From Cyanobium sp. FACHB-13342 (GTDB lineage Bacteria; Cyanobacteriota; Cyanobacteriia; PCC-6307; Cyanobiaceae), in contig NZ_JACJRT010000014.1 in assembly GCF_014697415.1 (NCBI RefSeq), forward strand, positions 1-64,000: a DNA stretch of 64,000 nucleotides, given 5' to 3'. The notes beneath the pieces were generated by a model. That model was not told the origin of the DNA. It did not search any database and was given only the letters and a program-made list of their open reading frames with translations. Below are positions 21,595-27,413 of the stretch, one piece after another (the stretch's first letter is position 1; every line of letters starts with the position of its first letter). A program made the translations under genes and the position numbers.

Positions 21595-22575
21595 TCAGCC
21601 CGACGTGGCGGCAACCGCTGAGTCCTGCTGGAGCGGCCGACGCAGGGGGCTGTCGGGGCTGGCGAACACCGGCAGCACCTCCTTGCGGAAGGCATCGGCG
21701 GCCCGGGAGCAATAGCGGGCGGGGTGGGTGATCAGCTTCAGCTGGCGGCGCACCAGCAGATCGGCCACCTGGGGGCGATGCAACGTGCCGGCCGAGAGCT
21801 CCCGCTCGATCGACACCACCGGCAGAAAGGCGGCACCCAGGCCGCTCTGCACGGCATTTTTGATCGCCTCAAAGGAGTTGAGCTCCATCTCGATCTTGAG
21901 GCGGCCCACATCCAGGCCGGAGCGGGCCAGCAGCTGGTCCACCATCTTGCGCGTGGTCGACTGGGCATCCAGGCAGACAAAGCCCAGCCGGTAGAGGTCG
22001 TCCTTGGTGAGCTCGGGCAGGCGGGCCAGGGGATGCTTCACCGGCAGCACCAGGGCCAGCTCATCGCTGGCGTAGGGCACCACCTGCAGCAACTCCCCGA
22101 GTTCCGTGGGCAGCTCCCCACCGATGATCGCCAGATCCACCTGGCCATTGGCCACGCTCCAGCCGGTGCGCCGGGTGCTGTGCACCTGCAGCTGCACCGC
22201 CACCTCCGGATACTTCTGGCGGAACAGGCCGATCATCCGCGGCATCAGGTAGGTGCCGGTGGTCTGACTGGCGCCCACGATCAGGGAGCCGCCGCGCAGG
22301 TTGTGCAGGTCTTCCAGGGCCCGGCAGGCCTCCTGACACTGGCTCAGGATCCGGTCGCAGTAGCTGAGCAGCAGGTGGCCCGCCTCGGTGAGCTGGGCCT
22401 TGCGCCCGCCCCGATCGAACAGGCTGACGCTGAGCTGCTTCTCCAGGTTCTGGATCTGCAGGCTCACCGCCGGTTGGGTGACATAGAGGCTGTCGGCGGC
22501 CTTCTTGAAGCTGCCCTCCGAGGCGATGGCCCGCAGGATGCGCAGCTGATCGAGGGTGAAAGGCAGATCTGCCAT
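21595..22575 (-). CDS. rbcR: LysR-type regulator RbcR/CmpR-like (Ycf30)
   Basis: A 326-residue LysR-family activator. The helix-turn-helix lies at about 6-65 ([20 protein letters not shown], then [20 protein letters not shown]). The effector domain contains [13 protein letters not shown] and AIIGGELP. Ycf30/RbcR proteins control RuBisCO and carbon-concentrating genes in response to metabolites; orthologue choice between RbcR, CmpR and NdhR is by similarity only. It is convergent with DUF3172 and divergent from the NnrU-family gene 104 bases away. Confidence 0.85.
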
Positions 22576-23522: not shown

Positions 23523-25535
23523 ATGCCTTCCGCCGCCGAACTCGCCTGGTTGATCCCGGTGCTGCCCCTGGTCGGAGCCTGTATCACCGGGCTGGGGCTG
23601 ATCAGCTTCAACCGCACCATCAACCGGTTGCGCAAACCCGTCGCCTGGCTGCTGATCAGCTGCGTAGGGGCTGCAGCCGTGCTCAGTTACGCCGTGCTGG
23701 CCCAGCAGCTCGCCGGCGCGGGCCCCACCGAGGTGCTGTTCAACTGGGCGAGCGCCGGCAGCTTCAACCTGCAGATGGGCTTCCGGGTGGATGCCCTCGG
23801 GGCGGTGATGCTGTCCCTGGTGACCACCATCGCCGTGCTGGTGATGGTGTATTCCGATGGCTATATGGCCCATGACAAGGGCTATGTGCGCTTTTTCACC
23901 TACCTGGCCCTGTTCAGCAGCTCGATGTTGGGCCTGGTGATCAGCCCCAACCTGCTCGAGATCTATGTCTTCTGGGAGCTGGTGGGCATGTGCTCCTACC
24001 TGCTTGTGGGCTTCTGGTACGACCGCGACGGCGCCGCCAATGCCGCCCAGAAAGCCTTTGTGGTGAACCGGGTGGGCGACTTCGGCCTGCTGCTGGGGAT
24101 CCTGGGGCTGTTCTGGGCCACCGGCAGCTTCGGCTTTGAGGAGATCGGCACCCGGCTGCAGGAGGCCGTGGCCGGCGGCAGCGTCTCCAACGCCGCGGCG
24201 ATCCTGCTCTGCCTGCTCGTGTTCATGGGCCCCATGGCCAAATCGGCCCAGTTCCCCCTGCACGTGTGGCTGCCCGACGCCATGGAGGGCCCCACCCCGA
24301 TCTCCGCCTTGATCCACGCGGCCACGATGGTGGCGGCGGGTGTCTTTCTGGTGGCCCGGCTGCAGCCGGTGTACGAACCCTTCCCGGCGGTGCAGGCCAC
24401 GATCGCCGTGGTGGGCACCATCACCCTTGTGCTGGGGGCCTCGATTGCCCTCACCCAGATGGACCTCAAAAAGGGCCTGGCCTACAGCACGGTGAGCCAG
24501 CTCGGTTACATGATGCTGGCCATGGGCTGCGGCGCCCCAGTGGCCGGCATGTTCCACCTGGTGACCCACGCCTTCTTCAAGGCCATGCTCTTCCTGGGGT
24601 CGGGGTCGGTGATCCACGCCATGGAAGAGGTGGTGGGCCATGAACCCGTGCTTGCCCAAGACATGCGCTTGATGGGTGGCCTGCGCAAGTTCATGCCGAT
24701 CACCAGCGCCACCTTCTTCATCGGCTGCATCGCCATCAGCGGCATCCCGCCCCTGGCGGGCTTCTGGAGCAAGGACGAAATCCTGGGGGTGGCGTTCGGC
24801 CAGTTCCCCATCCTGTGGGTGGCCGGTTTCATCACCGCCGGCATGACCGCCTTCTACATGTTCCGGCTCTACTTCCTCACCTTTGAAGGGGAGTTCCGCG
24901 GCGGCGACAAAGCCATGGCCGCCCAGTTGATGGCCGCCGCCGGTAAGACCGCGGATGACCACGGCGACGACCACGGCCACAGTCACGCCAGTCATCCCCA
25001 TGAATCCGGCTGGCAGATGGCCATGCCCCTGGTGGTGCTGGCGGTGCCCTCGGTGCTGGTGGGCCTGCTGGGCACCCCCTGGAACAGCCGCTTCGGCACC
25101 CTGCTGGATCCCCAGGAAGCCGCCGAGGTGGCCGAGCACTTCAGCTGGAGTGAGTTTCTGCCCCTCGCGGGAGCCTCTGTCGCCATCTCCGTGGCCGGCA
25201 TCAGCGTGGCCGTGCTGGCCTACGCCCTCCACAAGCTCGACCTGGGCACCGCCGTGGCGGCCCGCTTCCCCGCCTTCAACGCCTTCCTGGCCAACAAGTG
25301 GTATCTGGATGCCATCAACGACAAGCTGTTCGTGCAGGGCAGCCGCAAGCTGGCCCGCCAGGTGCTGGAGGTCGACTCGAAGGTGGTGGATGGCGTGGTC
25401 AACCTCACCGGCCTGGTGACCCTGGGCAGCGGCGAGGGCCTCAAGTACTTCGAAACCGGCCGGGCCCAGTTCTATGCCCTGATTGTGTTTGGCGGCGTGA
25501 TCGCCCTGGTCGTCCTGTTCGGCTCCCTGGGCTGA
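23523..25535 (+). CDS. ndhF: NAD(P)H-quinone oxidoreductase chain 5
   Basis: A 670-residue proton-pumping antiporter-like subunit of NDH-1, with many membrane helices. Conserved stretches: VFWELVGMCSYLLVGFWY, KSAQFPLHVWLPDAMEGPTP and STVSQLGYMMLAMGCG. A His-rich loop (several H-G and D-H units) lies at about residues 478-495, between helices near the C-terminal third. It resembles NdhF1 of the respiratory/cyclic complex. Followed by a structured 297-base spacer and then ndhD. Confidence 0.95.
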   Translation: MPSAAELAWLIPVLPLVGACITGLGLISFNRTINRLRKPVAWLLISCVGAAAVLSYAVLAQQLAGAGPTEVLFNWASAGSFNLQMGFRVDALGAVMLSLVTTIAVLVMVYSDGYMAHDKGYVRFFTYLALFSSSMLGLVISPNLLEIYVFWELVGMCSYLLVGFWYDRDGAANAAQKAFVVNRVGDFGLLLGILGLFWATGSFGFEEIGTRLQEAVAGGSVSNAAAILLCLLVFMGPMAKSAQFPLHVWLPDAMEGPTPISALIHAATMVAAGVFLVARLQPVYEPFPAVQATIAVVGTITLVLGASIALTQMDLKKGLAYSTVSQLGYMMLAMGCGAPVAGMFHLVTHAFFKAMLFLGSGSVIHAMEEVVGHEPVLAQDMRLMGGLRKFMPITSATFFIGCIAISGIPPLAGFWSKDEILGVAFGQFPILWVAGFITAGMTAFYMFRLYFLTFEGEFRGGDKAMAAQLMAAAGKTADDHGDDHGHSHASHPHESGWQMAMPLVVLAVPSVLVGLLGTPWNSRFGTLLDPQEAAEVAEHFSWSEFLPLAGASVAISVAGISVAVLAYALHKLDLGTAVAARFPAFNAFLANKWYLDAINDKLFVQGSRKLARQVLEVDSKVVDGVVNLTGLVTLGSGEGLKYFETGRAQFYALIVFGGVIALVVLFGSLG

Positions 25536-25542
25536 GCGGTTC

Positions 25543-25575
25543 GGCCGTAGCGGACGCTACGCGTCCAACACGGCC
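25543..25575. other. two-stage hairpin right after the ndhF stop
   Basis: GGCCGT (25543-25548) pairs with ACGGCC (25570-25575), and inside it GGACGC (25552-25557) pairs with GCGTCC (25561-25566) around a TAC loop. The two stems are separated by symmetric 3-base bulges. A competing pairing GTAGCG (25547-25552) with CGCTAC (25555-25560) is mutually exclusive with these, the logic of a switch. No T run follows. Confidence 0.7.
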
Positions 25576-25601
25576 TCGCACGCTCAGTCCAGGGAGCCTC
25601 A

Positions 25602-25613
25602 CCCCGCGAGGGG
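25602..25613. other. CCCC-GCGA-GGGG mini-hairpin
   Basis: A 4-bp GC stem with a GNRA-type tetraloop (GCGA), followed by four further G. It lies in the middle of the ndhF-ndhD spacer and may be part of a larger fold with the hairpins on either side. Confidence 0.5.
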
Positions 25614-25673
25614 GGGGAGCCGGAGCTGAAGCTTCCAAAAGCCCGGCCCCAACCCTCAAAACCCTCACCCCGC

Positions 25674-25744
25674 TCTGGGGGTCTTGCCCTGCGCTGGAGG
25701 CGTGAGCGGCTAGCGGGCCTCCAGCGCAGGGCAAGACCCCCAGA
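25674..25744. repeat. 28-bp perfect inverted repeat between ndhF and ndhD
   Basis: The arm at 25674-25701 (TCTGGGGGTCTTGCCCTGCG...) is repeated exactly in reverse complement at 25717-25744. The 15-base loop contains GCTAGC. No T run follows, so it is not a classical terminator, although such a stem could pause polymerase or block exonucleases. Rest of the 25536-25832 spacer: two other hairpins and a run of ACCCTCA direct repeats (about 25650-25668); no gene is visible. Confidence 0.9.
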
Positions 25745-25832
25745 ACCCAACGGTCTGTGTGACATCCCCCACCAGCAGAGTGCCTGGCCGGACTGAATTT
25801 CTACACTCCGGCCAAACGGTGAGGCCTGGTTC

Positions 25833-27413
25833 GTGCCCTTCCCCTGGTTGAGCGCGTCGATCCTGTTCCCGATCGCCGCCGCCCTACTCATTCCCTTCAT
25901 TCCCGATGCCGGCGACGGCAAGCGGGTGCGCTGGTACGCGCTGGGGATCACCTTGACCACCTTCCTGCTGACGGTGGGGGGGTACCTCAACGGCTACGAC
26001 CCCTCCGTGGAAGGGCTGCAGCTGGTGGAGCAGGTGCAATGGCTGCCCAGCCTGGGGCTGGCCTGGTCGGTGGGCGCCGACGGCCTCTCGATGCCGCTGA
26101 TCCTGCTCACCAGCTTCATCACGGCCCTGGCAGCCCTGGCGGCCTGGCCCGTGACCTTCAAGCCGAAGCTCTTCTACTTCCTGCTGCTGGCCATGGATGG
26201 CGGCCAGATCGCGGTGTTCGCGGTGCAGGACATGCTGCTGTTCTTCCTCGCCTGGGAGCTCGAGCTGCTGCCGGTGTATCTGCTGCTGGCCATCTGGGGC
26301 GGCAAGAAGCGCCAGTACGCGGCCACCAAATTCATCCTCTACACAGCTGGGAGCTCCCTGTTCATCCTGGTGGTGGGCCTGGCCATGGCCTTCTACGGCG
26401 GCGGCACGCCCACCTTTGAGTACACGGCCCTGATGGCCAAGGACTTCTCAACGAAGTTCCAGCTCTTCGCCTACGCCGGCCTGCTGATTGCCTTTGGGGT
26501 GAAGCTGCCGATCGTGCCGCTGCACACCTGGTTGCCCGATGCCCACGGCGAAGCCACGGCCCCGGTGCACATGCTGCTGGCCGGCATCCTGCTGAAAATG
26601 GGCGGCTACGCCCTGCTGCGCTTCAACGTGCAGCTGCTGCCCGAGGGACACGCCCAGTTTGCGCCGCTGCTGGTGGTGCTGGGCGTGGTGAACATCATCT
26701 ACGCCGCGCTCACCTCGTTTGCCCAGCGCAACCTCAAGCGCAAGATCGCCTACAGCTCGATCAGCCACATGGGCTTCGTGTTGATCGGCATCGGCAGCTT
26801 CAGTGCCCTCGGCACCAGCGGGGCCATGCTGCAGATGGTCAGCCATGGCCTGATCGGCGCCAGCCTGTTCTTCCTGGTGGGGGCCACCTACGACCGCACC
26901 CACACCCTGCAGCTCGATGAAATGGGCGGGGTGGGGCAGACGATGCGCAAGATGTTCGCCCTCTGGACCATCTGCTCCCTCGCCTCCCTGGCCCTGCCGG
27001 GCATGAGCGGCTTCGTGAGCGAACTGATGGTGTTCACCGGCTTCGTCACCAGCGAGGCCTATTCGCTCAGCTTCCGCATCGTGATGGCGGCCCTGGCGGC
27101 CGTGGGCGTGATCCTCACGCCGATCTACCTGCTCTCGATGCTGCGGGAGATCTTCTTTGGCAAGGAGAACGCCGAACTGGCCTCCCACACCCACCTGGTG
27201 GATGCCGAACCGCGGGAGATCTACGTGGTGAGCTGCCTGCTGGTGCCGATCGTGGGCATCGGCCTCTATCCCCGGATCATGACCGACACCTACCGGGCCT
27301 CGATCGAGGCCCTGGTGCAGCGGGAAACCACCGCCCTGGCCAAGGTGATCCAACCGCCGCCCGGCGACCTGATCCGCCAGCCCCTGCTCTCAGCGCCGGC
27401 CCTGCCGGTCTGA
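25833..27413 (+). CDS. ndhD: NAD(P)H-quinone oxidoreductase chain 4
   Basis: A 526-residue proton-pumping NDH-1 membrane subunit. It has [40 protein letters not shown] with the following [18 protein letters not shown], and [18 protein letters not shown], all hallmarks of NdhD. The start is a GTG at 25833 (no nearby ATG fits). It follows ndhF across a 297-base structured spacer, so the pair may be one operon with internal processing or two units. Confidence 0.95.

Follow-up and report, generated by a model that had tools for sequence, protein, structure and literature searches.

Two hairpins of conserved position and pairing at the ndhF-ndhD junction of picocyanobacteria

The spacer between ndhF and ndhD in the freshwater picocyanobacterium Cyanobium sp. 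FACHB-13342 holds two unusually long, nearly perfect hairpins, H1 and H2. They are present in single copy, occupy a fixed position in many lineages, stand ahead of a conserved downstream block, and stay paired while their sequence is replaced. This pair is a maintained feature of the ndhF-ndhD junction; neither a chance palindrome nor a dispersed repeat accounts for it. One possible reading, which we advance only tentatively, is that of a locus-bound hairpin pair, conserved in position and pairing across genera with its stem sequence turning over, that DNA template switching keeps perfect and that selection retains, in cyanobacteria lacking Rho, as a non-canonical end of transcripts. To the narrower proposal that H1 and H2 are 3'-end or insulator hairpins of the ndhF mRNA, lying upstream of an independent ndhD promoter, we give a chance slightly below even, judging from sequence comparison.

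Two long hairpins between ndhF and ndhD

The window, the whole stretch of 64,000 nucleotides that was analyzed, carries ndhF (NAD(P)H-quinone oxidoreductase subunit 5; 23523..25535, + strand; NF005626, 1215 bits against a cut-off of 963) and ndhD (NAD(P)H-quinone oxidoreductase subunit 4; 25833..27413, + strand; NF002713, 989 bits against a cut-off of 827), and H2 lies inside the 297-nt spacer that separates them. Its left arm (25674..25701, + strand) and right arm (25717..25744, + strand) are each 28 nt long and complementary at 28 of 28 positions; between them is a 15-nt loop, GTGAGCGGCTAGCGG (25702..25716, + strand), whose motif is common to seven same-genus relatives. These measurements reproduce the 28-bp identical arms, 15-base loop, and missing T run reported in an earlier note on this DNA. 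The runner-up perfect inverted repeat in the window is 12 bp (loops of up to 80 nt), and shuffling the dinucleotides of the whole window 20 times gives no perfect repeat longer than 14 bp. As RNA, H2 is predicted to fold at -73 kcal/mol (z -8.2), and its 28-bp duplex exceeds the roughly 20 bp taken as the minimum for an RNase III site.

A second long hairpin, H1 (25521-25598), which the earlier note did not include, spans the ndhF stop codon. Its left arm (25521..25538, + strand) consists of the final ndhF codons and the stop; it is 18 nt long and 94% complementary to the non-coding right arm (25581..25598, + strand), and the pairing is kept in 22 spacers. The fold is an 18-20-bp stem with an inner palindrome on top, GGCCGT..ACGGCC (25543..25575, + strand), of which the genome has one copy. 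The non-coding 3' arm tracks changes in the coding 5' arm, with 71 double-changed cells, 6 G·U pairs, and 7 other mismatches. H2 sits about 140 nt downstream of the stop codon, and the pair would belong to the ndhF 3' untranslated region. Upstream of these genes, a LysR-type regulator (21595-22575, - strand) is divergent from the ORF preceding ndhF; its best NCBIfam matches all fall under their cut-offs, and it is possibly RbcR-like.

Pairing, distribution, and the downstream block in relatives

Between species, the sequence of the stem is largely replaced and the pairing is kept, as aligned spacers indicate. Across the eight hairpins of the same-genus set, 97.5% of cells are paired, and in a second set of 12 hairpins the figure is 95.1%; these percentages favor a structure that was itself read off these sequences, and the counts of double changes are the stronger evidence. 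In the same-genus set, 21 of the 28 main-stem pairs are altered on both sides, giving 51 double-changed cells and a single one-sided change. Shuffling yields a mean of 15.9 double changes, and none of 500 shuffles reaches the observed count; sliding the register cuts pairing to 35-47%. The second set behaves in the same way (18 pairs and 60 cells double-changed, two single-sided, 0 of 500 shuffles). The comparison of relatives for compensatory changes that the earlier note had proposed thus comes out positive: pairing is kept through two-sided changes, above both shuffles and register slides.

We then followed the hairpins through related picocyanobacteria, whose ndhF-ndhD spacers gave 120 distinct sequences. 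H2 is called in 28, H1 in 22, both in 18, and neither in 88, with a score of at least 15 defining an H2 call and all H1 and H2 calls depending on the chosen score thresholds. H1 and H2 are therefore not essential, because the distribution is patchy and many relatives lack hairpins. On a FastTree phylogeny of 230 protein columns, H2 requires at least 15 gains or losses. A tendency of H1 and H2 to co-occur on independent branches is seen in too few pairs to carry weight. Within the genus, 8 of 13 readable spacers have an H2 of like loop type and differing stem, and the other 5 are short (94-140 nt) and have no H2. Two same-genus spacers without the hairpin, G012 (L019) and G004 (L017), retain a stub of H1 sequence (TTCGGCC...), and their sequences suggest that the hairpin was lost there by deletion.

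Where H2 is present, its geometry is constrained. Stems across relatives are mostly 19-33 bp, the total length is 64-79 nt except in two weak cases, and the 3' end lies 7-14 nt ahead of the motif TGTGTG in 29 of 30 cases (21 nt in the remaining one). Other genera carry differing loop families at the same position.

TGTGTG (25756-25761) opens a promoter-like block (25756..25808, + strand) that ends in ATTTCTACACTC (25797-25808) and includes the -10-like hexamer TACACT (25802-25807), some 30 nt upstream of the ndhD start. No consensus sigma-70 promoter is predicted at 25400-25950, and the block has no consensus -35. Described as TGTGTG, 40-44 nt, and TTTCTACACT, it is found in 117 of the 120 spacers, with or without a hairpin; the 40-44 nt from TGTG to TTTCTA[CA]ACT holds in all 117, including those of Prochlorococcus and hairpin-less genomes. 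From freshwater Synechococcus to Prochlorococcus, the spacing within the block is nearly fixed. We infer that this block is the putative promoter of ndhD itself, and a regulator may bind at its TGTGTGNCA portion. In three relatives (L106, L111, and L119) an insert of about 2.3 kb separates ndhF from ndhD. It carries a glycosyltransferase-like ORF and, in L106 and L111, a carbohydrate-deacetylase-like ORF behind it (names from reading translations), and the TGTGTG...TTTCTACACT block still lies directly 5' of ndhD. Since these inserted genes leave the block directly before ndhD, strict co-transcription of the ndh pair is not a conserved feature.

Copy number, maintenance, and rival readings

A search of the genome itself (2.37 Mb, 99% complete) with the hairpin region returned only the region itself, and searches of plasmid and phage records gave no match to it. 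H2 is the only hairpin scoring at least 16, with mismatches allowed, in sampled stretches totaling 864 kb, about 36% of the genome; a scan of 400 kb from the relative G006 finds no hairpins longer than the H2 and H1 of its ndhF-ndhD spacer. One-mismatch matches to the H2 loop motif elsewhere in the family are, by eye, not clearly above a reversed control pattern. Long hairpins are also scarce outside the spacer in the scanned flanks of 80 ndhF-ndhD loci. At or just past the ndhD stop codon, some relatives have perfect hairpins of 15-20 bp (L122:4576-4623, L130:4574-4611, L141:4613-4656). A multi-copy repeat family or mobile element is ruled out in this genome by the whole-genome, genus, plasmid, and phage searches. 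The suggestion that the hairpin belongs to a repeat family, to be checked by searching the genome for copies of the arm, does not survive: arm and loop are single-copy in each genome. It is true that the hairpin is palindromic, intergenic, and patchy over species, as a dispersed palindromic repeat (REP/BIME/REPIN-like or a miniature mobile element) would be, but the arm and the loop are both unique in the genome, the loop pattern GGCGTRAGCGNNNAGCGNG is found once in each of seven same-genus genomes and always in the ndhF-ndhD spacer, and plasmids and phages yield nothing. We consider membership in such a family highly improbable.

The main rival is that ndhF and ndhD are co-transcribed and that RNase III cuts the long duplex, splitting the messages and tuning their ratio; it develops the earlier note's idea of an NdhF:NdhD ratio set by pausing, processing, or stabilizing of mRNA ends. 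RNase III is a double-strand-specific nuclease that reads the helix and not its sequence, and it tolerates G·U; such an enzyme suits long stems in which pairing is conserved and sequence is free, and stems of 19-33 bp exceed terminator size in most cases. The genome encodes an RNase III; the match scores 161 bits (E 3e-47) and narrowly misses the curated cut-off of 166 bits. Against this reading stand the promoter-like block between H2 and ndhD in nearly all spacers, the 2.3-kb gene insertions in relatives' spacers, and the many relatives without hairpins, and these same observations leave the premise of an NDH-1 operon weak. G·U pairs, moreover, are not enriched even though the enzyme would tolerate them. 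On balance we think cleavage by RNase III unlikely to be the explanation.

The kinds of change within the stems bear on whether pairing is maintained in RNA or in DNA. H2 has 5 G·U versus 10 A·C among 759 pairs and H1 has 6 G·U versus 2 A·C among 448, for a joint 11 versus 12, all small numbers; overall, G·U is no commoner than A·C, whereas RNA-level selection should make it the commoner of the two. By manual count, 38 of the 51 same-genus double changes are of transversion type, for which no G·U intermediate exists. With no G·U bias and hardly any one-sided changes, the pattern suggests that one arm is copied onto the other by template switching during replication, a process that creates and maintains perfect hairpins (PMC8794818). 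Taken alone, these patterns could reflect DNA-level upkeep with no RNA function, in which template switching makes or re-perfects palindromes that persist in a permissive spacer: the arms keep to Watson-Crick pairs and mismatches are rare, G·U is about as frequent as A·C, double changes outnumber single-sided ones by 51:1 and 60:2, and most are transversion-type. We nevertheless regard this as distinctly unlikely, given that it does not explain the fixed position before TGTGTG in many lineages, nor why total lengths are so alike (mostly 64-79 nt) and why such hairpins are missing from the rest of the sampled genome; loop inversion, too, is nowhere seen. Arm copying alone leaves the position and the absence elsewhere unexplained, so we infer selection at the ndhF-ndhD site as well. 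H2 might instead work at the DNA level, ahead of the ndhD promoter, perhaps by forming a cruciform or absorbing supercoils next to TGTGTG; its end lies 7-14 nt from that motif and the transcribed strand has no G·U bias. The block, however, is conserved to the same degree in spacers that lack H2, and nothing in this reading accounts for H1 over the stop codon of ndhF, which makes it a poor bet.

A candidate transcript end and its relation to known systems

No U-tract follows H1 or H2, the latter being succeeded by ACCCAACGG, and no terminator-like site is predicted on either strand at 25400-25950. For both reasons a canonical intrinsic terminator was rejected, in agreement with the earlier view that the repeat is beyond an ordinary terminator. 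Rho searches of the genome gave only matches of 22-24 bits against a cut-off of 509, so Rho is absent, as it is, to our knowledge, in cyanobacteria generally. Rfam searches over the hairpins returned only sub-threshold microRNA precursors, reflecting hairpin shape; GC skew gave no clear signal of a replication origin or terminus; and literature searches found no description of an ndhF-ndhD hairpin element.

In the reading that we prefer, that of 3'-end or insulator hairpins, the ndhF transcript would run through the site and fold into the H1 and H2 duplexes, which would define and protect the mRNA 3' end. The end could form when polymerase is stalled or released without a U-tract, or when 3'-5' exonucleases are blocked after trimming. 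The duplexes would also insulate ndhD, with its own putative promoter just downstream of H2. Template switching would copy one arm onto the other, and selection would keep the hairpin at the site. Non-canonical ends are plausible at ndhF because in PCC 7942 known terminators are missing from most transcription units (PMC13289151). Several findings count against a 3'-end role: with neither hairpin in 88 of the 120 spacers, many relatives manage without them; the 5 G·U versus 10 A·C of H2 is the reverse of what RNA selection predicts; and in PCC 7942 the ends that have no U-tract were mostly without strong structure (PMC13289151).

How transcription ends in Rho-less cyanobacteria is an open question (PMC13289151). 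A conserved, natural hairpin pair of variable sequence at one junction, which some close relatives have and others lack, lends itself to comparison without further construction. Whether selection on RNA or arm copying in DNA preserves long hairpins can likewise be asked cleanly of this natural example.

H1 and H2 resemble several known systems in part. They share with intrinsic (Rho-independent) terminators a GC-rich hairpin downstream of a gene, but the U-tract is absent on both strands and the stem is far longer. RNase III processing stems are likewise long, near-perfect, sequence-free duplexes in spacers; here a promoter-like block follows H2 and cleavage is only putative. REP, BIME, and REPIN elements are also intergenic palindromes, whereas these hairpins are single-copy in each genome and have no stem sequence in common. 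The U-tract-less transcript-end hairpins of Rho-dependent units in E. coli are GC-rich, follow a stop codon, and could block 3'-5' decay; in contrast, the 28-bp stem is much longer, the hairpins form a tandem pair fixed relative to a downstream block, and there is no Rho. Unlike H1 and H2, U-tract-less ends in PCC 7942 mostly lack strong structure of this kind (PMC13289151). The template-switch hairpins of Monttinen and Löytynoja (PMC8794818) likewise have perfect stems, arms that change together, and a loop that is conserved; those lie in rRNA and microRNA genes, whereas the ndhF-ndhD hairpins lie in a bacterial mRNA spacer and have stems of 19-33 bp.
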